Assembly (NCBI RefSeq): GCF_015864945.1
Contig: NZ_JADYWF010000001.1
Coordinates: 1,674,378-1,738,377 of the forward strand
Reading direction: 5' to 3'
Length of the DNA stretch: 64,000 nt
Origin: Salinibacterium sp. NG253
GTDB lineage: Bacteria > Actinomycetota > Actinomycetes > Actinomycetales > Microbacteriaceae
In this document: positions 33,181 through 47,098 of the stretch, piece after piece
Numbering within the stretch: the first letter of the stretch is position 1
How the letters are laid out: each line of letters begins with the position of its first letter
Notes under the pieces: model-generated
Seen by the model: only the letters and a program-made list of their open reading frames with translations
Told to the model about the DNA's origin: nothing
The model's database searches: none
Position numbers and translations under genes: made by a program

Positions 33181-36100
33181 CTACTGCACGGGCCGCGCGC
33201 TGAAGTTATCGAACCTCACAGTCACGGGGGCGTTGGGTGCCGAACCCGAGAGGTAACTCTCGAATCCGACCGAACCTGCCGCCTGCAGCGCTGCCGTGGA
33301 ATCGGTAGTCACGAGCTGCCAGGCGGCCGGCTCGGTGTCTCCCTCCTTCCACAACTTGGCCGAAATCGTAGTGGGGCTCGTGCCCTCCACCGTGGTCTTC
33401 AGGATGAAGGTGTCCCCGGCCGCGTACGTCATTCCCGGCACGTTCATGTTGGCGAGCACCACCGTGGAGCCCGACATGATTTGCAGACCGACGACTCCGC
33501 CGGTTTGCAGGCGCAGTCGTGCTTGATAGAACGCGGAGCCAACTTGACGACCGATCACGCCGACGACGATGTGGCCGGATTCGGCAACCTTGTCAGCGGT
33601 GATCTCCACTTGAGCTTCCACCGAGGTTTCACTCACGCCCTCGAGCAACGCCCGGCGAGTGGTTCCCGTGCTCGTATGCACGAAGGCGCCAGCACCGTTA
33701 CCCACGGTGTAGGTCGAGTTCGTATTCGACGACCACGCCCCACCCGTGTTCGCGGAGCCCCAACCGGCGGCAACTGTGCGCTCGAAGGTGTCTTCAGCAA
33801 AGGCTGCGCCGGGCGGTGCGGTCACGACGACATCGTGACTGACCGTGCCCGTCGCCCCGTCGTCATCCGTCACGGTGAGCACAACGGTGTAGGTGCCCGA
33901 ACTCGCGTAGCTGTGCGACGGCGTTGCGCCGGTGTCGCTCGCACCATCTCCGAAGTCCCAGGCGTAGCTCGCGACGCTGCCATCGGCGTCCGTCGATCCT
34001 GTCGCGTCGAACGCCACGGCGAGTTCAGTCGCGGACGACGTGAACGCGGCAGTGGGTGCCTGGTTCGCCGGAGTCGAGCTGACGGTGACGGGGTGCGTCA
34101 CGGTAGCCGTGGCGCCCTGATCATCCGTCACCGTCAGAGCTACCGAATAGGTACCCGCGGTCGCGTAGCTGTGATCGGGGCTCGTTGCGGTGCTTGACTG
34201 ACCATCACCGAAGTCCCACGATCGCGAAGCAATGCTGCCATCGGGATCGCTCGATGCGCTCGAATCGAAGCTCGCGGTCAAAAGGTTCGCCGTACTGGTG
34301 AAGGATGCCGTGGGCAGCAGATTCGTCGGCGTCACGGGCTCGTCGGCATGGCCTGCAGTCGCCACGAACGAGTCGTAGCTCACGTGCACGGGAGCATTCG
34401 TGGCCGAGCCAGACAGGTAGCTGTACTGGCCGACCGCTCCCGCGGTTTGCAGGTTGGCGACCGATGAGGTTGCGGTGAGGGTCCAGTCGCTGGGTTCACT
34501 TGTTCCCTGCTTCCAGACCTTGCCGCGAATGGTCGTCGGCGAGGTTCCGAAGGTTTGCGCTTTCACGAGCAGCACGTCGCCTGGACTGAAAGTGAGGCCC
34601 GCAACATCCGTGTAAGCAATGTTGGTCGAGCTGCCACTCAGCAGCTGGAAGGCGAGGGTGCCGTTGGAGAAGTAGCGCACACGGGCTTGGTAGAAGCCGT
34701 TGCCGACTTCGCGCATCGTGATGCCCGTGTAGGCGCCACCACCCGTGATCGCTTGGTCGACGGAGATGCTCGCGCTGACCGTCACGTCGTCCGTCGAGAC
34801 GCTCGGCAACCAGGCGTGCCGGGTGGTACCCGACGAACTATGGTTCACGACTCCGGCATCCGATTCGACCGAGAAGTTGCCGTTGCTGTTCGTCGACCAA
34901 TCACCACCGACGAGAGCTGTGCCCCAGCCAGAGGTTTCGGAGCGAGCGAATTCGTCGCGAGCCAGCACGGTCACGACGGGCGGATCGAGAGCGATCACGT
35001 CATGACTGACCGTTCCCGTTGCCCCCTGGTTATCGGTCACGGTGAGGGTCACGGTGTAGTCGCCGGCGGCAGCGTAGAGGTGCGAAGTGCTTTCTCCACT
35101 ACCGGATGCTCCGTCGCCGAAGTCCCACGCGTACGAGCTGATCGTGCCGTCGCTGTCGGCCGAGCCACTCGCGTCGAAGCTCACCACGTTGTCGGTGGTT
35201 TCGCTCGTAAAGGCTGCGGTCGGCGCCACATTCGGAGCCAACACCGTGACTGCGGCGGAGGCGGTTGCCGAGGCTCCCTTGTTGTCGGTAACCGTGAGGG
35301 TGACGTCGTAGGTTCCCGCGGCGGCATACGTGTGATCGACCACGGCATCCGTGCTCGACGCACCATCACCGAAGTCCCACGCGTAGGCGTCGATAGTGCC
35401 GTCGGGGTCGCTCGATCCGGTCGCGTCGAAACTGGCAACGAGGTCGCTCTCCGCATGCGTGAACTCGGCAAGCGGTGCTTCGTTCGCGGTCCCGATCAAG
35501 AAGTGCGAGCTGACTTCGCTCGGCGTCAACACCGTCTGGTACACCGCGAACTCATCGAGGTCACCGTTGAAGTAGTTCGACGATGCCACTCCGACCGTGT
35601 TGCCGCGGCCGAGTCGCCAGTAGCCCGAGAACGTCTGGGTCGGGGTTGCAGCACTGGATGCCACCACTGCACCATCGACGAACAGTTGCAACCCTGCTGA
35701 TCCCTGGGTCGCTACCGCCTGATGCCACTCGCCATCGTTGTAGGAGGCGGTACTCGAGACGGTGTTGCTGCCCGTGCCGAACACGAGTGTTCCGTCGTTG
35801 CGCATCATCACGTGGTCGCCATAGTTGCTGGCGGTCCCGGTGGCGGAGGATCCGAACTCCACGAGCTTGCCACCCGTGGCGCTCGTGGTTCTGAACCATA
35901 CTTCGCTCGAATACGTCGAAGGGTTCGGCAGCGAGGTCGTCGTTGCCGCGAGCGCCTGCGTGAACTGGGTTGCCGAGTCGCTCGTGCCGCCAAGCGCACC
36001 GGGCACGTTGCGCGTGTAGGTGCCGCTGAGTGCTCCATCGAGCCCCTGCAGTCCAGCGTCATTCACGACGGCACCGGACGCTTCACCGAGTCGCCAATAC

Positions 36101-38511
36101 AGCTGCGGGCTCGCGTTGTACACCGCAGCACCGTAGCTGTCAGTGGGTGCGGGCGGTCCGGAAAGCGACCGGCCCGAGAGCTCGAAGTGGTTCTGAATTT
36201 GGGCCGCGGTGAGGGGGTTCGGGTACACGGCCACTTCGTCGATGGCACCGTTGAAGTAGTCAGAGCCACTCCAACTGCGGTCTCCACCGATGCGCCAGTA
36301 GCCCCAGTAGTTCTGGCCCCACACCACGTCGGGATCTACGCCAACGCGCACTCCGTCGACGAACATTTCCATGCCATCGGCGCCCATGCTGGCGACGACC
36401 TGATGCCACTCGTTGTCGTTGTACGACTTCGCACTTTGCACGACGCGAGCGCTACCGGTGTACACACCGAAGTTCAGGCGGCCCGAACTGTCCATGTACA
36501 CATGGCGGTCGTAGTTGCTTGAGTTACCGGTTTGACGGTTACCGAAGCCGACGATCTTGCCGCCCGAGGTTGTACTGGTCTTGAACCAGGCTTCGACCGA
36601 GAATGTGTTGTCGCGCCAGATTTGGGTGTTCGATCCGGCGTAGCTATTCGAGCTTCCCGTGAAGGTCGCGGCGGTGTTGCTGTCGCCGATGATTGCTCCG
36701 GATGTTCCGAAGCCCACGTTGTTGGTCGCGGTCGCGTTGTCGCGAGCCACGCTGTCGACCACGGTGTTGCCGCTCTCGCCGAGGCGCCAGTAGTTGGAGG
36801 GTTGATCCTCCATCACGGCTGCCGCATAATCGCTCAACTCACCGGCGGCCCCCGCGGTGAACGACACGGTCGAACCCCAGCCATTGTTGCCATAGGGGTC
36901 GATCGCGCGCAGGCGATACGTGTAGGTCTGGCCCGGCGTGAGGCCGGTATCCAGGTAGGTCATGGTCGGGCGGTCATAGAACCGCGACGCTTGCTCGGTG
37001 ACGTAGATGGGTGATCCACTCTTGCCATCCCGGATGAGGTGGTACGTCAGGTTTTCGTTGTCACGATCCCAATCGGCGGTCCAGCTCAGCGCGATCGTTC
37101 CGGGCGCGGGAGAGCTCATCGTCGGGGCCAAGTTGGCACCAGTCAGGCGCGGGCCATCCGCATTGGGGGCGATCGCCGGAATCGCGAATCTCAGCAACCC
37201 CTGTTGGTTTTGACCGTTGACGCGCGTGAACTCGCCGCCGAAGACGGCGTACTCAGCGTTAGACGTGACATCCCACGGGCCTTGGTATTGGCCGGTGAAG
37301 GTTCCGAGGTTGATCTCGGGGAAGAAGTTCAGCAACGACGGGCTCGAGTTGCCCGACCAGTCGTGGTAGCCGTAAGGATCGCGGGAGATGCTGCCGGTTG
37401 CATCTTTCGAGAACGCGATTCCGCGGTTGAATGACCACGGGTTCGTCTGCGGGAAGGCATCGATATTGCCGCAGTAGTGCGAGTGACCAGCGGCATAGAT
37501 GGCTCCGCTGGGCGAGGGAGAAACCGAGTAGGTATCACCGTGGCAGTCGTTGACCCAGACAAGTTCGCCATCCGACCAGTTCGATCGGAAGACGCCCTCT
37601 AGGTTGCCGCCGGAGCCGAAGACATAGCCGGAACCGTAGAAGCTGTCGCCGTCAGACGCGAGCGAGAAAATGGCGGCGTTGAGGCCGGCGTTACGCACCT
37701 GATTGTTGGTGGCGAAGGGCGTGATGAGCTCTCCAACCGTGGAGTCGACCATGGCAAGGCCGTAGCCGGGATCGCTCGATCCGTTCACGGTCGTGAAATC
37801 TCCGCCAATCACAACTTTGGATTCGTCGGGGGAGACAACGATGCCGAAGGCACGACCGCCGGCGAGCTCGGGAGCCCAGGAGGTCACGCTGCCATTTGTG
37901 GCGAGAGCTGCAGCGCCGCCGAGGCGAGTGTTGCCACTGACCGAGGTGAATGGTCCCGAGAAGAAGACCTGAGTGTTCGTAGCTACGACCGCATAAACGC
38001 GATAGTTCGCGCCAGCATCGAAGCCGCCGTAGATTGCCCCCGTGGCGGTATTGAACGCAACGATGCGACTTTTCGAGACGCCGTTCACCGATGTAAAGTC
38101 GCCGACCGCATAGAGCCGGCTTCCGTCAGGAGAGGCGGCCAGAGCACGAACTTGCCCGTTGAACGTCGGAGCCCACGGCAGCAGGGCACCAGTCGTGAGG
38201 TTGTACGCGAGCACGTACGAGCGACTCTGCTCGTTGGTGCCCGCGGGCGAACCATACGGTCGGGCTGAGCTGAAATCGCCAGACGCGTAGACGGTGTTGC
38301 CCACGATGACCTGGTCCCAGACCACACCATTGATCTGGGGCGTGGGTAAGGGATCAGTAGACACAGTGGTGGGTACAGGCGGGGCAGCCGCAGTGTCGGC
38401 AACAGCTGCGGTGGGCAGCGTTACGGTGAGCAAAGTCGCAATTAATGTCATCGCCGCTGCGGCGGAAACAAGTCTCAGCGGGTTCGGTGGCATCTGGCGG
38501 GTTAAGCGCAT
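33181..38511 (-). CDS. Giant secreted PKD/LamG multidomain protein
   Basis: 1776 residues. Signal peptide with Ala-x-Ala-like cleavage near residue 39 (PTAAVADTAAA). Then: beta-propeller-like repeats (about 47-457, delta-60-type VYASGDFSSA, LYAVGDFTSVNG), a fibronectin-III-like domain (460-553), two LamG/concanavalin-like jellyrolls (577-783 and 794-1007), PKD pair 1 (about 1012-1170, YAWDFGDG twice), a jellyroll of unknown family (1179-1389), PKD pair 2 (1397-1565), and a second copy of that jellyroll (1570-1775). No LPxTG, no C-terminal anchor. It is probably shed or bound to the polysaccharide as an adhesin or matrix protein. ATG 38511 has GAAGG 8 bases upstream. Confidence 0.85.
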   Translation of the reverse strand: MRLTRQMPPNPLRLVSAAAAMTLIATLLTVTLPTAAVADTAAAPPVPTTVSTDPLPTPQINGVVWDQVIVGNTVYASGDFSSARPYGSPAGTNEQSRSYVLAYNLTTGALLPWAPTFNGQVRALAASPDGSRLYAVGDFTSVNGVSKSRIVAFNTATGAIYGGFDAGANYRVYAVVATNTQVFFSGPFTSVSGNTRLGGAAALATNGSVTSWAPELAGGRAFGIVVSPDESKVVIGGDFTTVNGSSDPGYGLAMVDSTVGELITPFATNNQVRNAGLNAAIFSLASDGDSFYGSGYVFGSGGNLEGVFRSNWSDGELVWVNDCHGDTYSVSPSPSGAIYAAGHSHYCGNIDAFPQTNPWSFNRGIAFSKDATGSISRDPYGYHDWSGNSSPSLLNFFPEINLGTFTGQYQGPWDVTSNAEYAVFGGEFTRVNGQNQQGLLRFAIPAIAPNADGPRLTGANLAPTMSSPAPGTIALSWTADWDRDNENLTYHLIRDGKSGSPIYVTEQASRFYDRPTMTYLDTGLTPGQTYTYRLRAIDPYGNNGWGSTVSFTAGAAGELSDYAAAVMEDQPSNYWRLGESGNTVVDSVARDNATATNNVGFGTSGAIIGDSNTAATFTGSSNSYAGSNTQIWRDNTFSVEAWFKTSTTSGGKIVGFGNRQTGNSSNYDRHVYMDSSGRLNFGVYTGSARVVQSAKSYNDNEWHQVVASMGADGMEMFVDGVRVGVDPDVVWGQNYWGYWRIGGDRSWSGSDYFNGAIDEVAVYPNPLTAAQIQNHFELSGRSLSGPPAPTDSYGAAVYNASPQLYWRLGEASGAVVNDAGLQGLDGALSGTYTRNVPGALGGTSDSATQFTQALAATTTSLPNPSTYSSEVWFRTTSATGGKLVEFGSSATGTASNYGDHVMMRNDGTLVFGTGSNTVSSTASYNDGEWHQAVATQGSAGLQLFVDGAVVASSAATPTQTFSGYWRLGRGNTVGVASSNYFNGDLDEFAVYQTVLTPSEVSSHFLIGTANEAPLAEFTHAESDLVASFDATGSSDPDGTIDAYAWDFGDGASSTDAVVDHTYAAAGTYDVTLTVTDNKGASATASAAVTVLAPNVAPTAAFTSETTDNVVSFDASGSADSDGTISSYAWDFGDGASGSGESTSHLYAAAGDYTVTLTVTDNQGATGTVSHDVIALDPPVVTVLARDEFARSETSGWGTALVGGDWSTNSNGNFSVESDAGVVNHSSSGTTRHAWLPSVSTDDVTVSASISVDQAITGGGAYTGITMREVGNGFYQARVRYFSNGTLAFQLLSGSSTNIAYTDVAGLTFSPGDVLLVKAQTFGTSPTTIRGKVWKQGTSEPSDWTLTATSSVANLQTAGAVGQYSYLSGSATNAPVHVSYDSFVATAGHADEPVTPTNLLPTASFTSTANLLTASFDSSASSDPDGSIASRSWDFGDGQSSTATSPDHSYATAGTYSVALTVTDDQGATATVTHPVTVSSTPANQAPTAAFTSSATELAVAFDATGSTDADGSVASYAWDFGDGASDTGATPSHSYASSGTYTVVLTVTDDDGATGTVSHDVVVTAPPGAAFAEDTFERTVAAGWGSANTGGAWSSNTNSTYTVGNGAGAFVHTSTGTTRRALLEGVSETSVEAQVEITADKVAESGHIVVGVIGRQVGSAFYQARLRLQTGGVVGLQIMSGSTVVLANMNVPGMTYAAGDTFILKTTVEGTSPTTISAKLWKEGDTEPAAWQLVTTDSTAALQAAGSVGFESYLSGSAPNAPVTVRFDNFSARPVQ

Positions 38512-38561: not shown

Positions 38562-38606
38562 ACCATACTCCCCCTCCGCCCCGTTTGGGTGCCCCCCAAA
38601 AGGGGG
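38562..38606 (-). promoter_or_regulatory. Promoter P1 with C5-AAAA-G5 palindrome, drives the giant protein/wzx operon
   Basis: The palindrome CCCCC-AAAA-GGGGG spans 38593-38606. Read on the minus strand it is followed 24 bases later by GAGGGGGAG-TATGGT, a -10 box at 38567-38562, about 45 bases before the ATG. A further GACCCCC half-site lies at 38617-38623. The same layout recurs at P2, P3 and P4. Confidence 0.6.
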
Positions 38607-38648
38607 TCACGTTTCGGGGGTCGCCCGCCGAGGTGGGTAGACCGATCG

Positions 38649-39332
38649 TTACAGCAGGTCCGCAATATCCCCTTGGAAAACAACCGGTTGCACGTCGACG
38701 GAGTAGTCGACGAGAAGGGTGACATTGCCACGCTGATCAGCAGGAACAGTGAAAATGTATACGCCATCGATCACCGAATTTGCCGCGAGGGATGCCGGCA
38801 GCGGCGAGCCGCCCGGCTCACGAAGTTCGGGCGCCGGCGTGCGGTCGGCGCCAAAGTAACAACTGATCACGGTCGTGCGCAACGAGACCACTGACGAGGT
38901 CGAGTTTGTCATCGTGACCGTCACGCGCAACGACGGACCAGCGACTTCACCGGGGCCGCGAGCGGTGCCATCGACCTCCTCAACCTTGGTGACTTTTGCC
39001 ACGAGGCCGGGGGTAACATCCGCTGGCTCCTCGAGCGGAACGGGTGTGACATCGGGCACGGCTGGCCCGTCGACCGGTGCCGCTGTCTCTGTCGCTGTCC
39101 CTGTCGCTGCTGGCAACTCGGTTGACGCCCCAGCACTCGGCGTCGCCGCGGGCGCAGCGCCGGGAGTCGAGGTCGGTGCAAGCTGCCCAAACAGCACGAC
39201 CCCGAGCACCACGAGCAGCGCAATCACGATGCCGCCCGCGATCATGCGACGGGGGCGGGTGCCTAGCCACGACGGCGTGGCCGCCACAGCTTCAGGCTCT
39301 AACTCGGTTCCTGGGTGCTTCGACATAGTCAT
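38649..39332 (-). CDS. Membrane-anchored extracellular protein of unknown function in polysaccharide locus
   Basis: 227 residues. Cytoplasmic N-terminus of about 28 residues with TRPRRM, one membrane helix (about 29-51), then a Thr/Pro/Ala-rich linker and a C-terminal immunoglobulin-like domain (from about 105) of DUF4352-like appearance, with VTMTNSTSSVVSLR and a single Cys. ATG 39332 has CGGAG upstream. It is divergent from the glycosyltransferase at 39503 and appears to share the central palindrome with it (P4). Possibly a cell-surface scaffold for the polymer. Confidence 0.7.
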   Translation of the reverse strand: MTMSKHPGTELEPEAVAATPSWLGTRPRRMIAGGIVIALLVVLGVVLFGQLAPTSTPGAAPAATPSAGASTELPAATGTATETAAPVDGPAVPDVTPVPLEEPADVTPGLVAKVTKVEEVDGTARGPGEVAGPSLRVTVTMTNSTSSVVSLRTTVISCYFGADRTPAPELREPGGSPLPASLAANSVIDGVYIFTVPADQRGNVTLLVDYSVDVQPVVFQGDIADLL

Positions 39333-39365
39333 GGCAGCTCCGTGCCTCGGGAGTGGTCGGTACTG

Positions 39366-39440
39366 GACGGTACACCCGCGCCCTTCAGCACCGTACCCCC
39401 TGTTCTGGGGCCACGGCGAGAAACGTGAGCGGCGTACACT
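39366..39440. promoter_or_regulatory. Divergent promoters P3 (+) and P4 (-) sharing one C5-N6-G4 palindrome
   Basis: Central palindrome CCCCC-TGTTCT-GGGG at 39396-39410. On the plus strand TACACT (39435-39440) follows after 24 bases, leading to the TTG-start glycosyltransferase at 39503. On the minus strand TACCGT (39372-39367) follows after 23 bases, leading to the membrane protein starting at 39332. Spacing and the G-rich sequence before the -10 match P1 and P2. Confidence 0.55.
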
Positions 39441-39446
39441 TCCAAG

Positions 39447-39466
39447 CCAGACTGTGGGGAGTCTGG
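39447..39466 (+). promoter_or_regulatory. Hairpin in the 5' leader of the glycosyltransferase gene
   Basis: CCAGACT-GTGGGG-AGTCTGG, a perfect 7-base-pair stem with a 6-base loop, lies within the transcribed leader after P3, 37 bases before the TTG start. It may affect message stability or translation; not followed by a U-tract, so not a terminator. Confidence 0.45.
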
Positions 39467-39502
39467 TCGAAGTTCTTGAGTCCGTCAACGGAGGAGGGAA
39501 AG

Positions 39503-40693
39503 TTGAACGGCCCACGCCCCCCTGCCGAGCGCGAACCGATCGTTCGCCTCCTCGGAACCCACGGCATTCCTGCCGCCTACGGTGGCTTTGAAACTGCCGC
39601 CGAGAACGTCGCCATTTTTCTGCGTGACCACGGCTGGCGCCCTGTTGTTTACTGCCAAGTTCCGGGCACCGGCGCCATCACGACAGACCTGTGGCACGGC
39701 ATCGAACGGGTGCTGATTCCGGAACAACGCGAAGGATGGTTGGGCACCGCACGCTTCGACCTCACCTCGATCCGGCATGCGATTCGACACCGGGATATCT
39801 GCCTCACGTTTGGGTACAACACGGCCGTGTTCAACATCCTGCAGCGTCTCAAGCGCATCCCGAATGTCATCAACATGGATGGCATCGAGTGGTCTCGTTC
39901 GCGCTGGGGCAAGGGGCGGCAGGCAATTCTGTGGATAAACGAACGGATCGCCTGTTGGGTGGGCAATCGACTCATTGCCGATCATCCGGTCATCGAAACT
40001 TATCTGGCCACACGCGCTCGGCGCTCGAAACTCGTCACGATCACGTACGGCGCCCACGCTGTCGAAGCCGCTGACACTCTGCCGGTAACCAGTCGCGGCC
40101 TCACGCCCGGGCGCTATCTGACGCTCATCTGTCGGCCCATCCCCGAGAACACGATTCTCGAACTTGTCACCGCGTTTTCCCGAGAACGCCGCGATCACCA
40201 GTTGGCGATCTTCGGCACCTACGACGACAGCGATCCCTATGCGCGGGCGGTGCGCGAAGCCGCCAGCGATGAGGTGCTGTTCGTCGGCCCGATTTACGAA
40301 CCCGATGAGGTGTCTTCTTTGAGATTCCATTCCCTTGGCTACCTGCACGGTCATACCGTTGGCGGCACGAACCCCTCGCTCGTCGAAGCGATGGCCGCCG
40401 GCAATGCGGTGATCGCCCACGACAATCCCTACAACCGTTGGGTTGCCGGTGACGGTGCACTCTATTTTTCGGGCGTGGATGACGCAGCCGCCCACATCAC
40501 GACGCTGCTCGCGGCGCCCGATCGCCGGGCTTCGCTCGCGGCCGCCAGCCGCGCCAGGCATGCCGCCGAGTTCACGTGGGAACGCGTCGCGGGGCAGTAC
40601 GCGGAGCTCCTCGCCGAGCAGCTCCCCGCCGGCACGGCTCCCGTCGCCGCTCCGCGCTCGACCCCGTCGCCGCGACCCGGAGCGAACGCATGA
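39503..40693 (+). CDS. Glycosyltransferase, DUF1972/GT4-type rhamnosyltransferase-like, TTG start
   Basis: 396 residues. N-terminal VRLLGTHGIPAAYGGFETAAENVA is the DUF1972 signature of Wbb/Cps1-type transferases; TFGYNTAVFNILQR and NMDGIEWSRSRWGK follow, and the C-terminal GT4 fold shows YLHGHTVGGTNPSLVEAMAAGN. I set the start at TTG 39503 because GGAGGAGGGAAAG precedes it and the family start aligns there; longer frames lack a ribosome-binding site. The stop overlaps the next ATG (ATGA). Adds a sugar to the lipid-linked repeat unit. Confidence 0.84.
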   Translation: MNGPRPPAEREPIVRLLGTHGIPAAYGGFETAAENVAIFLRDHGWRPVVYCQVPGTGAITTDLWHGIERVLIPEQREGWLGTARFDLTSIRHAIRHRDICLTFGYNTAVFNILQRLKRIPNVINMDGIEWSRSRWGKGRQAILWINERIACWVGNRLIADHPVIETYLATRARRSKLVTITYGAHAVEAADTLPVTSRGLTPGRYLTLICRPIPENTILELVTAFSRERRDHQLAIFGTYDDSDPYARAVREAASDEVLFVGPIYEPDEVSSLRFHSLGYLHGHTVGGTNPSLVEAMAAGNAVIAHDNPYNRWVAGDGALYFSGVDDAAAHITTLLAAPDRRASLAAASRARHAAEFTWERVAGQYAELLAEQLPAGTAPVAAPRSTPSPRPGANA

Positions 40694-41793
40694 TCCGCGT
40701 GGGCGTGGTCGGGCTCGGCAAAATGGGGCTCTCGCACTTGTCGATGATTCGGGCGCATCCTCACGTCTCGGTGGACGCGGTTGTCGATTCGGCTGGCTAC
40801 ATCTTGGGGGTGCTGTCGAAGTACACGGGCCTGAAGACTTTTACTGATTTCGAGAAGATGCTCGACAGCGTTGAACTCGATGCGGTGCTCATCGCGACCC
40901 CGACCCGCTTTCATGCGGCGATGGTGCGCACGGCTCTCGACCGCGGGCTTCACGTGTTTTGCGAGAAGCCCCTCACGCTCACCGCAGCGGAATCCGCCGA
41001 GCTTGCGGGAGTCGCAGCTGTCCGTGGCCTTGTCACGCAAGTCGGATATCACAACCGTTTCGTCGGCACCTTCCGCGAGGCTAAGCGACTGTTGGAGGCA
41101 GGCGCGATCGGCCGGGTCACCCACTTGCAGGCCGAGTCGTATGGCCCGGTCGTGCTCAAGGCGAAGGGCACGACGTGGCGCAGCAAGCGCACCGAGGGCG
41201 GCGGCTGTCTCTATGACTATGCCGCGCATCCGCTCGACCTCGCGACGTGGTTTGTCGGCAACGCCACCGGCGTCGGCGGCACCATTCTGGGCAGCGTCTT
41301 TTCGGAGAATACCGAAGACGAGGTCTACAGCACGATCTACTTCGCCGACGGAGTCAGCGGGCAGCTCTCGGTGAACTGGTCGGATGAGTCGTACCGCAAG
41401 ATGACCACTCGGGTGAGCATCTTCGGCACGCAGGGCAAGATCATTGCCGACCGCCAAGAGATTCAGGTCTACCTGCGCAGCACCGCCCCCGAGCTCGAGG
41501 GCTACGAACCCGGCTGGACGATCAAGTCGACCACCGAGCTCACCGATGAGGTGTGGTTCTACCTCCGCGGCGAGGAATACAGCGCCCAACTCGATCACTT
41601 CGTGCAGCGCATCGGTGACCCCTCGCTGCCCGCCACCAACGACTTCGCGAGTGCTGCCATCACTGACCGCATCATCGAACTGCTGACAGCGGATGCCGCC
41701 GCCGGGCCCGCCACAACCACCCTCGTCGGCGAGACCACGGCTTCGACCGCACCCAAAGCCCGCCGCGGAAGCCTTCTAGGGAGACGCTCATGA
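40690..41793 (+). CDS. Gfo/Idh/MocA-family oxidoreductase
   Basis: 367 residues. N-terminal Rossmann GVVGLGKMGLSHL (5-17), the nicotinamide-adjacent motif CEKPL with Lys93, and a GGGCLYDYAAHPLDLATW segment near residue 175 that contributes the Asp/His pair of the family. A C-terminal Ala/Thr-rich tail of about 35 residues follows the fold. ATGA overlaps on both sides place it between the glycosyltransferase and the TIM-barrel gene. Probably a sugar-nucleotide or inositol/polyol dehydrogenase in polymer precursor synthesis. Confidence 0.83.
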   Translation: MIRVGVVGLGKMGLSHLSMIRAHPHVSVDAVVDSAGYILGVLSKYTGLKTFTDFEKMLDSVELDAVLIATPTRFHAAMVRTALDRGLHVFCEKPLTLTAAESAELAGVAAVRGLVTQVGYHNRFVGTFREAKRLLEAGAIGRVTHLQAESYGPVVLKAKGTTWRSKRTEGGGCLYDYAAHPLDLATWFVGNATGVGGTILGSVFSENTEDEVYSTIYFADGVSGQLSVNWSDESYRKMTTRVSIFGTQGKIIADRQEIQVYLRSTAPELEGYEPGWTIKSTTELTDEVWFYLRGEEYSAQLDHFVQRIGDPSLPATNDFASAAITDRIIELLTADAAAGPATTTLVGETTASTAPKARRGSLLGRRS

Positions 41794-42716
41794 GCACCAC
41801 CGCACCGCGCACCACCGACTCGGGCGGCCCGCTCACCACTCCCGGTTCGTCGAAACTCGACCCGGTGCTGTTTGGCGATAACCAGTTCTTTGGCATCAAC
41901 CATCGCTCGGAGGAAAAGGCTCGCGAGCAGGCGATGCGCTTTCAAGATCTCGACGCGATCATGGCGGTCATCGACGATGCCTACGCCAGCGGCATCCGCA
42001 CTCTCATGTGCACAACGCACGACCGCATTGCCGATGTGGTGGAGCGAGTGCGCGCTGACCCTGAGCGCTACGACGGGTTCTCGTTTTTCCCCTGCATGCC
42101 GTACGCGCACAAGTACGCCGACGCGGTCACCGAGAACGGAATCCTGGGGGCCCTCAATCGCTTCATGCCCGACGAAGGCATGCTCAACGCAATGATGCGC
42201 GGCGGCCGTTCGCTGGCCAAGAAAGACATCGAGGGCATCATCACCCTGCTGGTGGATGCCGAGATGGCCGGCTTCGCTGGCGTGCGCACCCCGGTGGTCT
42301 GGCTGCAGAACGTCGTCGTGGATCTGCTGCTGGGGCTCGGCTTTACCGATGCCTTTGCGATCTTCGCGGCCCACGTGCGCACCCGCTACGGCGCCGAGCC
42401 CGGCTTCATCACGATGAACCTGCCGATGCTGCTCGATCACCTCGATCAGGCCGGCATCGAGAATCCGCTCGTGTGTTCCAACATCAACAAGATCGGGTTC
42501 CGGATGTCGGGCGGCGTTGAGGCCTATCAGGATGCGTTGGCCAAGCGGCCGTTCCGTGCTGTCGCGATGTCGGTGTTTGCGTCGGGAGCGATCCCCCCGC
42601 GAGAGGCACTGGAGTGGATCTATGCGCAGCCCGGAATTGAATCAATCGTGTTCGGAGCATCCAGTCGCTCTCACATCGAAAGCACCGTTGCGCTCGTGCG
42701 CGAGTTCGAGAACTAA
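41790..42716 (+). CDS. TIM-barrel protein, aldo/keto reductase-like without the usual tetrad
   Basis: 308 residues. The start (VLFGDNQFFGINHRSEE), an IDDAYASGIRTLMCTTHDR strand-helix unit, and the final FRAVAMSVFASGAIPPREALEW and GIESIVFGASSRSHIESTV resemble the AKR barrel ends. The Asp-Tyr-Lys-His AKR tetrad is not recognisable, so activity could differ (lyase, isomerase or binding). ATGA overlap with the Gfo/Idh gene; the stop overlaps the convergent CDP-alcohol transferase stop. Probably cooperates with Gfo/Idh on a cyclic polyol or sugar. Confidence 0.65.
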   Translation: MSTTAPRTTDSGGPLTTPGSSKLDPVLFGDNQFFGINHRSEEKAREQAMRFQDLDAIMAVIDDAYASGIRTLMCTTHDRIADVVERVRADPERYDGFSFFPCMPYAHKYADAVTENGILGALNRFMPDEGMLNAMMRGGRSLAKKDIEGIITLLVDAEMAGFAGVRTPVVWLQNVVVDLLLGLGFTDAFAIFAAHVRTRYGAEPGFITMNLPMLLDHLDQAGIENPLVCSNINKIGFRMSGGVEAYQDALAKRPFRAVAMSVFASGAIPPREALEWIYAQPGIESIVFGASSRSHIESTVALVREFEN

Positions 42717-43477
42717 CTCGCGTCGATAGCGCGCAGCTGCCGAAACCAGCGCCCAAGCACAGCGAGCAGAATGAGCGCGTTGGCGAGAAACAGCAGGCCA
42801 TAAAACACCACGAAGCCGTCCATCCAGCCAAAGAGAACAAAGCTGAGGCACAACACGGCGTAGTCGGTGGGAATCGCGACAATCGTCTGCAGCCAGCCGC
42901 CACCACCACTGGGCTTGGCGTAGGCGCGCCCGCGCTCGGCGGAGGCAATGCGGCGCAACTGATCGGTGAGAATCATCGCGAAGAAGAACACCGACGACAC
43001 CACGATGAAGCCGAGCGGAATCAGCAAGATGCTGTCGGGCCATCCAGTGTCGAAACGGTACAGCGAGATCAGGATGACGCCGTGAAAGATCACGATCTTG
43101 AACGCGTCGACCACGTGGTCGAGCCACTCTCCCGCTTTCGTACCGCCGCCACGCAACCGCGCCAGTTGGCCGTCAGCAGAGTCGAGGGCGTACCCGAGCA
43201 GCAGCAGGAAGGCCACGAGGATGCCAAGCCACCAGCTCGGCTGCACGGTGGCCACGAGCACAAGCGCGATCGCCGTCATGAGGGCGCTGAGGCCGGTGAC
43301 TTGGTTGGGCGTGCGCCCGGCGAGGTAGGCGGCTGCTGCGAGCAGGCGCCCCAGGCGGCGGTTGATCCACCGCGAATACGGCGGAGCGCCCCGGCCAGGC
43401 TTCTGAGCAGACGCGAGCGAGCGGACAATCGCACCGAATGTTTCCGGCACTTCTGGGCGTTCCCCTGTGGCGGTCAT
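42713..43477 (-). CDS. CDP-alcohol phosphatidyltransferase family protein in polysaccharide locus
   Basis: 254 residues with about six membrane segments. The signature is canonical: Asp99-x2-Asp102-Gly-x2-Ala106-Arg107, eight residues, Gly116-x3-Asp120-x3-Asp124. A soluble N-terminal part of about 40 residues precedes the first helix. TATGGT lies 5 bases before the ATG, fitting a leaderless message. Location in the locus, plus the TagD-like enzyme at 26611, suggests transfer of a phospho-polyol (glycerol, inositol or similar) onto a lipid or glycan. Confidence 0.82.
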   Translation of the reverse strand: MTATGERPEVPETFGAIVRSLASAQKPGRGAPPYSRWINRRLGRLLAAAAYLAGRTPNQVTGLSALMTAIALVLVATVQPSWWLGILVAFLLLLGYALDSADGQLARLRGGGTKAGEWLDHVVDAFKIVIFHGVILISLYRFDTGWPDSILLIPLGFIVVSSVFFFAMILTDQLRRIASAERGRAYAKPSGGGGWLQTIVAIPTDYAVLCLSFVLFGWMDGFVVFYGLLFLANALILLAVLGRWFRQLRAIDAS

Positions 43478-43560
43478 GTTTCACCATAGCCCTAGGCTCC
43501 GGGCTGGGTCGAGAGTTCTCCCCGGTGGGCAGCGAAAGCGTCGGGTCTAGCATGGGGGTC

Positions 43561-44673
43561 ATGCGCGTTCTCTTCGACGGGTTCTGGTGGGTTCGAGGTC
43601 CGGCCTCGAATCGTCAAGTGCTGCGCGAGTTCGTGTGGGCCTGGCTGCGCGAGTTCCCCGAAGACGAAGTCACGGTGGCGGTGCCCCGAGCATCCATCGA
43701 TATTGCGCGCTCAGAACTGCCCGCGAGCGCGGACGTTGTCGGCACCCGCCTCCGACCTCAGGGTGTCAGTGCGATCGCCGAGCTGCCCTTCATCACGAAA
43801 CGGCTGAACGCGGATGTCACCATCACCCACAATTTCACGCCAGCATTCGGGCGGTCGGCGGTCTTCATCCACGACTACATGTTTCTCACGTCGCCCGAGT
43901 GGTTCACGCTCAAGGAACGTGCGTACTTTGCGCTAATGCCCTTGAGTTCTCGGCGGGCGACGTGGCTCTTCGCGTCGTCGGCAACGGAGGCTGCGCGAAT
44001 CAGTCGCCTGAGCCAGGGTCGCCCCGTCACGCCCATTGGGCTGGCCGTGGGGCGCGGGCTCACGGAGTCCGCTCCACGAAAGCCGCCGGGGCTCGACGAC
44101 TTAGCGGGCGATTTTCTGCTCTGTGTTGGCCGACTCAATGCCCGCAAGAATCTGGCGAACACCATCGAGGCAGCCCTCGCCTCGGGTCGGGCCACCGAGC
44201 GCACTCCGCTCGTGATCGTTGGCGAACCGCAAGGGCGCAGCGCTGAGCTGCCGGCTGCGGTAAACGCTGCCGCGGAGAGCGGCGCCATCCGATTTCTCGG
44301 CTTCATCGACGACGACGAATTGGCATGGCTCTACGCCCACACGGCGCTGCTGCTCTTTCTCACTCGTGACGAAGGCTTCGGGCTTCCCGTCATCGAGGCG
44401 CTCTCGTTCGGCGCACCGGTTGTCGTGAGCGACATCGTTGTCTTTCACGAACTAGCCGGAGCGCAGGCGACATTCGCCGACCCTGATGATGTGGCGGCTA
44501 TCGCTGCGGCAATCCGTTCGGCGCCCGCGCGCGAGCATCCGTCCATGGACGGCGTGACGCTAGCCTCGGATGCCCCTCTACAGCCAGCAGAAAGCACCCG
44601 CTATTCCTGGGCGGCCAGCGTTCGCGCCCTCCGCGCGCGCATCGTCGACGACCCACACCGGGCCTCACGCTAA
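43561..44673 (+). CDS. Glycosyltransferase family 4
   Basis: 370 residues. C-terminal GT-B nucleotide-sugar site: GDFLLCVGRLNARKNLANTIEA near residue 182, IRFLGFIDDDELAWLYAHTALLLFLTRDEGFGLPVIEALSFGAPVVVSD with the Glu-x7-Glu motif. N-terminal VLFDGFWWVRGPASNRQ is the acceptor domain. ATG 43561 is supported by TAGCAT exactly 7 bases upstream (leaderless). It adds a sugar, most likely mannose, rhamnose or galactose, to the repeat unit. Divergent from the CDP-alcohol transferase with 83 bases between. Confidence 0.86.
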   Translation: MRVLFDGFWWVRGPASNRQVLREFVWAWLREFPEDEVTVAVPRASIDIARSELPASADVVGTRLRPQGVSAIAELPFITKRLNADVTITHNFTPAFGRSAVFIHDYMFLTSPEWFTLKERAYFALMPLSSRRATWLFASSATEAARISRLSQGRPVTPIGLAVGRGLTESAPRKPPGLDDLAGDFLLCVGRLNARKNLANTIEAALASGRATERTPLVIVGEPQGRSAELPAAVNAAAESGAIRFLGFIDDDELAWLYAHTALLLFLTRDEGFGLPVIEALSFGAPVVVSDIVVFHELAGAQATFADPDDVAAIAAAIRSAPAREHPSMDGVTLASDAPLQPAESTRYSWAASVRALRARIVDDPHRASR

Positions 44674-45098
44674 CCGCTCCATTTCGAACCGAGCTAATCC
44701 TCTTAATAGGGGCACGCGCGCACGGCCGTCCCGACGAGGTTTCATTCCTCTTAATAGAGCAGCATTTCTGAGTCATGATCGGGCGCCCGCCGCTGACTGC
44801 GCAGTCCGCTTCGCGTGAGCTGGTGGACTTGCCGTGTGGCGGTAATGAGTGAGTGTCGGAGGGCGCCGAGGCCTCCCGAGCGTGCCATCGGTTCCGTTCA
44901 CGACAGCTCCTCTCATGTCGGCCTGCACGGGTACACGAAAATCCCACTTCTCGTGGCGCATATCAGCGACGGGTTTTGCCCTCACCGATCTCCCGATGAC
45001 AACAGTGAGGGCGTCTGGGGAGAGACATGCTGGTTGGGGTGAATGGTGGTGCGCGCCACAGCGTTCAGCGGCTCTGACTTCAGTGAGCGCGCACACGA
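44674..45098. other. 425-base intergenic region between convergent genes
   Basis: No convincing gene. It contains an exact 12-base direct repeat TCCTCTTAATAG at 44698-44709 and 44746-44757 (48 bases apart), and an inverted repeat GCCCTCAC (44978-44985) / GTGAGGGC (45005-45012) with a 19-base loop that could terminate or process either transcript. Small frames here have atypical composition and no ribosome-binding sites. Confidence 0.5.
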
Positions 45099-46637
45099 TT
45101 AGTAGGCTCCGACCGGGTTGACGAGCACTTTGAAGGTTCGCCACATGATGACAAGGTCACCGACGACCGACCAGTTTTCGACGTAGTAGAGGTCGAGGCG
45201 CATGCTGTCTTCCCAGTTCAGGTCGGAGCGGCCGTTGATCTGCCACATGCCGGTCAGCCCTGGCTTGATGTAGAGGCGACGATTGACCTTCCCTTTGTAG
45301 GCGCGCACTTCGCTAGGCAGGGGCGGTCGGGGACCTACGAGGCTCATGTCGCCCTTGAGTACGTTCCAGATCTGCGGCAGTTCGTCGAGAGAATATTTGC
45401 GGATGAAGCGTCCGACTCTGGTTACTCGGGGGTCGTTCTTCAGCTTGAAGAGCACACCGGAGCCTTCGTTTTCCGTTTGCAGTTCAGCCAACTTGGCGTC
45501 GGCATCCGAGACCATAGAACGGAACTTGAACATGCGGAACGTTTCGAGATCTCGACCCACCCGCACTTGGCTGTAAAACGCACCACCGGGGCTTTCGGCA
45601 CGGATGACGAGCGCCAAGAGTAGAAACAGCGGCGCCAGCACCAGAAGGGCAATGCTGGAGACCACGATGTCGAGCCCCCGCTTCACGACATGCTTGCCGC
45701 CCTCGAACTGCGGAATCTCAACGTGAATGAGCGGCAGGCCCTCCACTGGTCGAAAGTGGATGCGGGGTCCAGCCACATTGGCAAGGCATGACGCCAAAAT
45801 CAGCTCAGCAGCGGTGCCCTCTAGCCTCCAGGCGAGGTTGCGGATGAAGTCGTTGCCAAAGCCGTGATCGCCGGCGACGATGACCGCATCAGCCCCGAGA
45901 TCCGCTGCGGCCTCCACCACCTCTTCGGGAGTAAAGCTATAGGGGTGCGGAGTGCCTGCGGTTTTGGGGGCGTTGACTTCGGGGTCGGTGAGCACGCCGA
46001 CGAGCTTGAAGGCCGTGCTCAGGTTTCCCTTGATGCGGGACACCACGTAGTCGATCTCCGAACGAGTGCCGACAACGACAACGCGGGAGAGCGCATGCCC
46101 GTAACGACGTTGCGTCGTAAGCCACCGACGCCACGACCACCTACTGACGAGAAGGCCAACGACGCCCAACGCCATCGTGACCACAGTTGCTTTTCCGGGA
46201 AAGCCAACCTCGACGATGAGCACTGTGACAGACAGCAGCCCAAAGGCAGTCATGCACGCGGTGATGACACGCTTGTATTCGTTGGGCCCGGAACCAATGA
46301 TGCGCCAGTCGCGGGTATGGAAGGCCTCGAGCACCAGAATCCACACGAGCGCGATAGCGCCCAAACCCAGCCACACAATTGGCGGCAACTCTGACATGAC
46401 GCCGGGGGTGCTATCGACGGCCGCCCGCATGAAGACCGCGGCAATCATCGTGACGACGATAATGGCGGCATCCGAAATGAGCAGTCGTGTTTGGTAGGCA
46501 CGGGCCCAAGCCACCCCGGAGTCGGGGTGCGGAGTGCTCGGAGCGTGGGGCTCAAATTCCACACCATCAACTAATCGAAGGTGTGCTCGTTCTCTATCGT
46601 TGGGCTCTGATCCAGGAAGTTTTCGGAGCTGACTCAT
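45099..46637 (-). CDS. Undecaprenyl-phosphate sugar phosphotransferase (WcaJ/PglC-superfamily initiating transferase)
   Basis: 512 residues. Five hydrophobic helices (about 50-160 and 315-340), a CoA-binding-like Rossmann domain between (VVVVGTRSEIDYVV, AVIVAGDHGFG), and the C-terminal bacterial sugar transferase domain starting KRGLDIVVSSIALLVLAP. Key motifs: FKFRSMVSDADAK, KYSLDELPQIWNVLKGDMSLVGPRPP and the final GLTGMWQINGRS. It transfers a sugar-1-phosphate to undecaprenyl phosphate, starting the repeat unit that the glycosyltransferases, Wzx and Wzy complete. ATG 46637. Confidence 0.9.
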   Translation of the reverse strand: MSQLRKLPGSEPNDRERAHLRLVDGVEFEPHAPSTPHPDSGVAWARAYQTRLLISDAAIIVVTMIAAVFMRAAVDSTPGVMSELPPIVWLGLGAIALVWILVLEAFHTRDWRIIGSGPNEYKRVITACMTAFGLLSVTVLIVEVGFPGKATVVTMALGVVGLLVSRWSWRRWLTTQRRYGHALSRVVVVGTRSEIDYVVSRIKGNLSTAFKLVGVLTDPEVNAPKTAGTPHPYSFTPEEVVEAAADLGADAVIVAGDHGFGNDFIRNLAWRLEGTAAELILASCLANVAGPRIHFRPVEGLPLIHVEIPQFEGGKHVVKRGLDIVVSSIALLVLAPLFLLLALVIRAESPGGAFYSQVRVGRDLETFRMFKFRSMVSDADAKLAELQTENEGSGVLFKLKNDPRVTRVGRFIRKYSLDELPQIWNVLKGDMSLVGPRPPLPSEVRAYKGKVNRRLYIKPGLTGMWQINGRSDLNWEDSMRLDLYYVENWSVVGDLVIMWRTFKVLVNPVGAY

Positions 46638-46868
46638 CGGTCAACTTCCGCACTGGCACGCCTGAACATGCGGGCGTTGCACAGGCGTGTGGTGCAGCTG
46701 CTGAGCGGAGGACAGGGGAGATTCGGTTATAGCCTGCATCGGGATCACGACATTTCGGGTGTCGACATTGGGGACGCTAATAGGAGCGCTGCGGGGGCGC
46801 GCTCGGAGGTGGCGCGCTGATCGGCACGCACTGCGGGGCGGGTTGGTTAAACTGCTCTGGTACTGCTG

Positions 46869-46884
46869 ACCCCCCAAAGGGGGT
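46869..46884. promoter_or_regulatory. Palindrome ACCCCCC-AAA-GGGGGT at the predicted P2 start site
   Basis: Lies 8 bases downstream of the P2 -10 box, so it would overlap the transcription start. It could be a second site for the same factor, suggesting repression or looping with the upstream palindrome at 46920-46936. Confidence 0.5.
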
Positions 46885-46891
46885 AGTGGAG

Positions 46892-46936
46892 AACATACTC
46901 CCCTCACACCGCGACTCGTACCCCCATTTTGGGGGT
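46892..46936 (-). promoter_or_regulatory. Promoter P2 with C5-ATTTT-G5 palindrome upstream of the initiating transferase
   Basis: Palindrome ACCCCC-ATTTT-GGGGGT at 46920-46936. On the minus strand, 23 bases later, GAGGGGAG-TATGTT gives a -10 box at 46897-46892. The block around the -10 shares GAGGGG-AGTATG with P1 (CATACTCCCC on the plus strand at 46894 and 38564). Confidence 0.6.
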
Positions 46937-47098
46937 CACTCGGCGTGTCGGTTTGACGAAACCCGAGGTTGATTACACCTAAGTCCCGCGCAACTACTGG
47001 GGTGCGGGGCTCAATAAGCGAGCATTAATCGCCATGAGGGAGCGCGTGCAACTTACACAACTGGTCTACCGCGAAGCGCCCCAAAGGCTTCGAGAACG

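Follow-up and report, generated by a model that had tools for sequence, protein, structure and literature searches.

C5-N-G5 palindromes at predicted promoters of exopolysaccharide and secreted-protein genes in Microbacteriaceae: a candidate operator of a shared regulator

What are the C5-N-G5 palindromes that precede scattered exopolysaccharide (EPS) genes in a Salinibacterium locus, and could one regulator read them all? We analysed a 64,000-nt stretch (hereafter the window; C1:1674378-1738377) of a 2.97-Mb assembly from the Salinibacterium genus group, family Microbacteriaceae; its priming transferase is 99% identical to that of Salinibacterium sp. SWN167, the nearest named record. The original prediction placed these palindromes 23-24 bases from TANNNT (-10-like) boxes at three promoter regions, P1, P2 and P3, with such a box on both strands at the 39396 copy (TACCGT at 23 on the minus strand, TACACT at 24 on the plus strand), and direct reading confirmed all of these coordinates. 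Positions relative to start sites are geometry from the predicted -10 boxes, each box being taken to begin at -12; by this geometry the palindrome centres of P1-P3 lie at -43 to -44.5. We concluded that the palindrome is very probably a real, shared protein operator. With more reserve, we favor the reading that it is the operator of one regulator, probably dimeric and old in Microbacteriaceae, which would act as a class II-like activator at the EPS promoters. The features in the window are as follows.

38592..38606, no strand: P1 palindrome CCCCCC-AAAA-GGGGG, retained in the five examined relatives with the giant gene
38562..38567, minus strand: P1 -10 box TATGGT, 24 bases past the G-run
33181..38511, minus strand: P1 target, a giant LamG/PKD-domain protein of 1776 amino acids (aa), from a family search
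39396..39410, no strand: P3 divergent palindrome CCCCC-TGTTCT-GGGG, with a weaker core, kept in 4/4 relatives with both flanking genes
39367..39372, minus strand: P3 -10 box TACCGT, offset 23, likewise in four relatives
39435..39440, plus strand: P3 -10 box TACACT, offset 24, likewise in four relatives
38649..39332, minus strand: P3 target, a 227-aa protein
39503..40693, plus strand: P3 target, a 396-aa glycosyltransferase (DUF1972 / Glyco_trans_1_2)
46921..46935, no strand: P2 upstream palindrome CCCCC-ATTTT-GGGGG, centre at -43, in 8/8 aligned sequences (window plus seven relatives)
46870..46883, no strand: P2 downstream palindrome CCCCCC-AAA-GGGGG, +3 to +16 of the predicted start, in 8/8 aligned sequences
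46892..46897, minus strand: P2 -10 box TATGTT, 23 bases past the G-run, with GAGGGGAG directly before the box
45099..46637, minus strand: P2 target, a 512-aa sugar-phosphate (priming) transferase (Bac_transf PF02397, E 1.5e-68)

The strict pattern CCCCCN{3,6}GGGGG gave five register matches in the window, at three places (P1 and both sites of P2), against 0.21 expected (sd 0.54, maximum 2 in 100 shuffles). Here and below, matches were counted by register and strand, in the controls as well; a run of six C or G gives two registers and counts twice, and match counts therefore exceed counts of places. The P3 palindrome, with its G4 arm, fails the strict pattern, and its support is the conservation in the four relatives having both flanking genes. 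The minus-strand gene there had been named wzx, a name that its 227-aa product, without a Pfam match, does not bear out. The downstream P2 palindrome, unseen in the original prediction, sits just past the -10 box, which is thus flanked by two palindromes whose centres are 51.5 bp apart in the window and 51.5-54 bp apart (about five turns) across the eight aligned sequences. In that alignment both palindromes and the box are conserved blocks and the spacers drift. A G-rich block common to P1 and P2 had also been proposed. GGGGNGTATNNT has five matches in the genome, and only two of the five, P1 and P2, match GGGGAGTAT (plus NNT); at P2, however, the block is retained in just the two closest of the seven aligned relatives and is therefore no constant part. 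Another block, CCGACACGCCG (46938-46951, minus strand), lies just 5' of the upstream P2 palindrome, is nearly invariant in the eight sequences and is a possible site for a second factor. At P1, a degenerate second palindrome, CCC-AAAC-GGGG (38579-38589), adjoins the first and is kept in four orthologs.

Relatives with the same locus keep the sites. The priming transferase was found at 72-100% identity in 7 of the 40 searched genomes (the window's included), and both palindromes lie upstream in 7/7; named records at the same identity contribute one further genome, S. amurskyense, the other four being assemblies already counted. A strict site lies no more than 900 bp upstream of the gene at 14 of 50 scanned transferase loci, 12 of which also have TANNNT at offset 23-25. 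In a separate comparison of box positions, the window included, the boxes stand at this offset in 11/11 loci for P2, in 6/6 for P1 and, on both strands, in 5/5 for P3. P3 is retained in PHSC20C1 although the left P3 protein there is only 54% identical. At two loci, L114 and L130, one strand carries in succession the transferase gene, a homolog of the P3 glycosyltransferase (32% identity) and the giant gene (about 50%), forming one apparent operon with a promoter of two palindromes and TACTGT at offset 23. In the window's clade these three are split among separate units, and every unit has a palindrome of its own, as is expected if a shared regulator persists while the operon breaks up. Tandem palindromes 16-17 bp apart, with a box at offset 20, precede transferase homologs at four loci of another genus branch (L032, L036, L037 and L038).

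Searches beyond the locus gave an excess over control patterns. The genome contains 13 places with C5-N(2-8)-G5, counted as 17 register matches per strand, compared with 8 matches for the reversed pattern; in six relatives, C5-N(3-6)-G5 had 69 matches and its reversal 33. With a TA flank, TACCCCCN{3,6}GGGGG gave 55+74=129 register matches in 27 genomes of the Salinibacterium genus (92 places in 26 genomes), compared with 15+7=22 for the reversed pattern. In 150 Microbacteriaceae genomes, TCTACCCCCN{3,6}GGGGG gave 50 matches in 27 genomes, with 9 of these matches coming from the own genus, compared with 9 for the control. The motif is scattered through Microbacteriaceae and near background elsewhere. 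The sites of both genus searches, with flanks, were collapsed to 123 unique sites. Only 16 of these lie deep inside open reading frames (ORFs), compared with 74-77% of random positions under the same rule, both figures being approximate, as are gene starts, with our home-made ORF chooser; palindromes as frequent inside genes as outside were thus not found. The other 107 sites have spacers of 4 (44 sites), 5 (36), 6 (18) or 3 (9), and the consensus is roughly GTcTA-CCCCC-N(3-6)-GGGGG-TAgAC, with the GTcTA before C5 taken from 214 arms.

The sites are also phased to -10-like boxes. Ortholog downstream genes were merged into 77 groups (the P2 groups by hand) and TANNNT offsets past the G-run were compared with 300 shuffles. 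A box at 23-25 bases was present in a mean of 12.3 groups (shuffled 1.7, maximum 7) and at 33-35 bases in 8.1 (shuffled 1.7, maximum 7); windows 15-21, 27-31 and 36-42 were under the shuffled level. The offset steps are about one helical turn, and 23-25 and 33-35 share helical phase. A site over the start (box ending 4-10 bases before the C-run) was counted 10 times among 78 groups, a count made without shuffle comparison. At 13 promoters with the 23-25 offset the best -35 match averaged 2.8 of 6, compared with 2.3 at random positions, which served as the control in place of other promoters. The DUF1800 promoter is the exception: its palindrome arm TAGACA resembles a -35 box and matches it at 5 of 6.

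The genes behind the sites are more varied than EPS synthesis. The original prediction spoke of exopolysaccharide promoters; EPS genes are among the targets, but the site is genus-wide, scattered in the family and often found before secreted-protein genes. The main target groups, each with one member confirmed by Pfam and the remaining members assigned through BLAST grouping, are these.

DUF6459 protein and its divergent neighbour: 11 and 12 unique sites
Extracellular nuclease: 7 unique sites
DUF1800 protein: 6 unique sites
S8 protease: 6 unique sites
Sigma-70/zf-HC2 fusion: 5 unique sites
VWA/solute-binding protein: 4 unique sites
Further targets: collagen-repeat protein, M28 peptidases, alpha/beta hydrolase

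Signal-peptide-like starts, called by a simple rule, occur in 23/61 target groups and in 25/180 control ORFs taken from the window and nine EPS-type loci rather than the whole genome (Fisher p 1.5e-4). Outside the genus, the pattern stands before genes for an S8 protease, a trypsin-like protein and a pilin-type methylation motif protein (Pfam) and, on our reading, before nuclease and DUF6459 genes as well; two products, the L311 pilin (69 aa) and the L366 nuclease, gave no Pfam match and were named from their sequences. The sigma-70-like/zf-HC2 fusion, with a long C-terminal part, is a conserved target with its box at offset 23 (L015, L052, L077, L087 and L095). In six genomes (L284, L288, L290, L296, L333 and L338) a C5-N-G5 site with a TAGAC flank stands directly after the stop codon of rplI, before dnaB (both named from sequence), and one family genome (L351) has a copy in an apparent dnaA-dnaN intergenic region.

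How would such a site work? At the EPS locus the regulator would bind with its site centred some 43-44 bp before the predicted start, in a region with a poor -35 element. There it would most likely assist the binding of RNA polymerase in a class II-like manner, and from the 39396 site it would do so for both divergent promoters. We favor class II-like activation because the predicted centres lie in the low -40s, the -35 is poor and one site faces two divergent promoters. At other genes binding would be shifted by roughly a helical turn towards or away from the start, and binding over the start, for example at the second P2 site, may restrain expression; a brake or a loop would suit both the paired palindromes of P2 and the sites that overlap a predicted start. 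Through targets that range from EPS genes and the giant LamG/PKD protein to secreted enzymes, the regulator would coordinate cell surface and secretome. The analysis itself establishes the site, how far it is conserved, how it is phased to -10-like boxes and which genes follow it; the start sites, dimer binding, activation and a single protein for all sites are what we infer from sequence. One distant factor for the giant protein, the glycosyltransferase and the initiating transferase, as originally proposed, is supported by sites that are conserved, mostly extragenic and promoter-phased. Two of the outcomes named beforehand as refuting it, equal frequency of palindromes within genes and lack of conservation where relatives have the locus, did not occur. 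Control of the ECF (extracytoplasmic function) sigma type, proposed alongside it, is unlikely because the distance between box and palindrome takes several values; an ECF promoter was rejected, as the offsets peak at 23-25 and 33-35, and more weakly at 11-13, and keep no fixed distance.

A wider scheme may be sketched, tentatively and at less than even confidence. It supposes a hitherto undescribed master regulator of surface and secretome in Microbacteriaceae that reads GTcTACCCCC-N-GGGGGTAgAC on one helix face, over the start and at about -31, -43 and -53; from the upstream positions it would activate, and at the start it would act as a brake. It would join EPS synthesis, the giant LamG/PKD protein, pili, a secreted nuclease and proteases in an adhesion/biofilm programme, and each EPS operon fragment in the window's clade would have kept or gained its own site. 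The site offers a bait for the regulator and a target list for a candidate adhesion/secretome regulon in Microbacteriaceae, a large actinobacterial family, and P2, with palindromes on either side of its -10 box, permits a direct test of one protein both activating and repressing.

A number of observations weigh against a single activator acting through this site. The 39396 core is degenerate, and a rigid dimer would not usually read spacers varying from 3 to 6. G010, a genome of the genus, has 6 bare palindromes and 10 control matches. The pattern TCTACCCCCN{3,6}GGGGG had 9 matches against 4 for the control in 111 genomes of the same order outside the family, which is near background, and none in the seven other family genomes drawn alongside these. 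TANNNT is a short consensus, and offset 23-25 accounts for only about 12 of the 77 groups; two of the largest groups, DUF6459 and nuclease, lack a box at the offsets considered. Boxes at 11-13 (4.1 groups; shuffled 1.7, maximum 6) and 44-46 (4.0 groups; shuffled 1.7, maximum 7) are within reach of the shuffles, the 11-bp period strength of 0.49 was the highest among six periods tried, and sites at offset 11-13 or over the predicted start suit a repressor equally. High-G+C genomes often have weak -35 elements. No signal-peptide-like start was found in 38 of the 61 target groups. At 36 of the 50 Bac_transf loci, none of them in the window's clade, the 900 bp upstream contain no strict site, and two Homoserinibacter loci (L140 and L151) have the site without a box at 23-25. 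Further transferase homolog loci (at most 48% identity) have a strict site in 5/23, with a box at 20 in four and none in one. In the 21.5-kb locus of PAMC 21357 (L108) the P2 pair is present, and the giant gene and the P3 genes have no match.

The same protein could instead be a repressor that covers the -35 region or the start and blocks RNA polymerase, with the P2 dimers perhaps forming a loop. This is a serious rival, yet an unlikely one. The palindromes on both sides of the P2 -10 box in 8/8 aligned sequences, about five turns apart, and the ten counts of a site over the start speak for it, but the pair distance is not constant (58.5-62.5 bp in L114, L130 and L142), the dominant offsets of 23-25 and 33-35 share the helical phase that activators often need, and the -35 at the 23-25 promoters is barely above random. 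Much further from the evidence, the palindromes might be no operator at all and represent REP (repetitive extragenic palindrome)-like intergenic repeats, terminators or RNA hairpins at 5' ends, which we consider highly improbable. In favour of this reading, the inverted repeats are short, strong and extragenic, the second P2 site would be transcribed, a few sites directly follow the rplI stop codon, and some cores form GAAA or TTCG loops. A REP-like element, however, would have many copies and no tie to promoters, and even the wide pattern C5-N(2-8)-G5 has just 13 places in the genome; moreover the sites stand at the same promoters in orthologs, phased upstream of -10 boxes in untranscribed sequence.

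If the preferred reading of one shared, probably dimeric regulator holds, which protein would it be? The original prediction saw no regulator gene of known specificity for such a site beside the palindromes, and 0/10 window proteins scanned around the sites match a regulator family. The few TetR-, XRE-, PaaX- and ECF-like genes that adjoin sites elsewhere, by our own reading, do not recur tellingly. A RamA-type GAF-LuxR protein of this genome (L179; G000:C1:1000055-1000906) was weighed and is quite unlikely. It has a full-length match to NCBIfam NF041673 RamA (159.6 bits), but this score is under the equivalog cut-off of 500. A CCCCC-N7-GGG stretch precedes its gene, and the sites contain C4/G4 stretches like those bound by the LuxR-type RamA of Corynebacterium glutamicum, whose motifs are given as A/T/C-GGGG-N and A/T/C-CCCC-N in the available portion of PMC4847777. 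That portion does not describe RamA sites as fixed palindromes, and the targets that it names are in carbon metabolism. In addition, three genomes (G010, G015 and G017) keep the P2 palindrome pair, yet their best L179 matches, among 40 relatives searched, span the C-terminal part only, so none of the three gave a full-length match. A metal or sulfide sensor of the CsoR/RcnR family has the least to recommend it and can hardly be the answer. Operators of this type look alike, TACCCC..GGGGTA, as they also do in PF02583 loci of the genus, but in the 20 PF02583 loci taken from 22 genus matches a C5-N(0-7)-G5 site occurs in 0/20. Eleven of the 20 (L219, L220, L222-L226, L229-L231 and L233) instead bear the shorter palindrome TACCCC-N2/3-GGGGTA nearby, and the named targets of the present site are not metal genes, the neighbours of L271, as read from their sequence, perhaps excepted. 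The CsoR-type operators thus have an N2-3 spacer and C4/G4 arms beside PF02583 genes; the present sites have C5/G5 arms and N3-6.

Nothing apt on this motif or such a regulon in Microbacteriaceae came from a search that covered Creative Commons-licensed PMC text, and we make no claim that the motif is unpublished. Within the LuxR family, the genome has 17 GerE matches (two of them sigma-factor-like), and their loci have no strict C5-N-G5 site; among 30 of the 49 GerE matches from G010, G015 and G017, counterparts at 75% or above exist for nine of these proteins, and conservation therefore singles out no LuxR candidate. BldM of Streptomyces, an orphan atypical response regulator, binds as a dimer to a 16-bp palindrome, the Group I box TCACcCgnncGgGTGA, and co-ordinates developmental genes, according to the part of PMC4125116 consulted. 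Its C.C-N4-G.G core spacing resembles that of the present sites, whose spacer is 4 in 44 of 107, and a NarL/FixJ-type orphan regulator is therefore our first guess. The outer bases differ: TCA/TGA there, GTcTA/TAgAC here with C5/G5 runs and a spacer of 3-6, and the arm consensus holds no TCAC...GTGA. The genome also encodes a response-regulator-like LuxR protein (L177; G000:C1:52442), which we label BldM-like, with TCACCC-N4-GGGTGA upstream of its gene; this palindrome resembles the BldM box and is likewise present at both of its orthologs (L259 and L267; three genomes in all). Compared with the sites of class II activators such as CRP, FNR and LuxR, which are palindromes centred in the low -40s with a weak -35, the present sites have a similar predicted position and -35, but their predicted centres of -43 to -44.5 are slightly further out and there are sites at other positions too.

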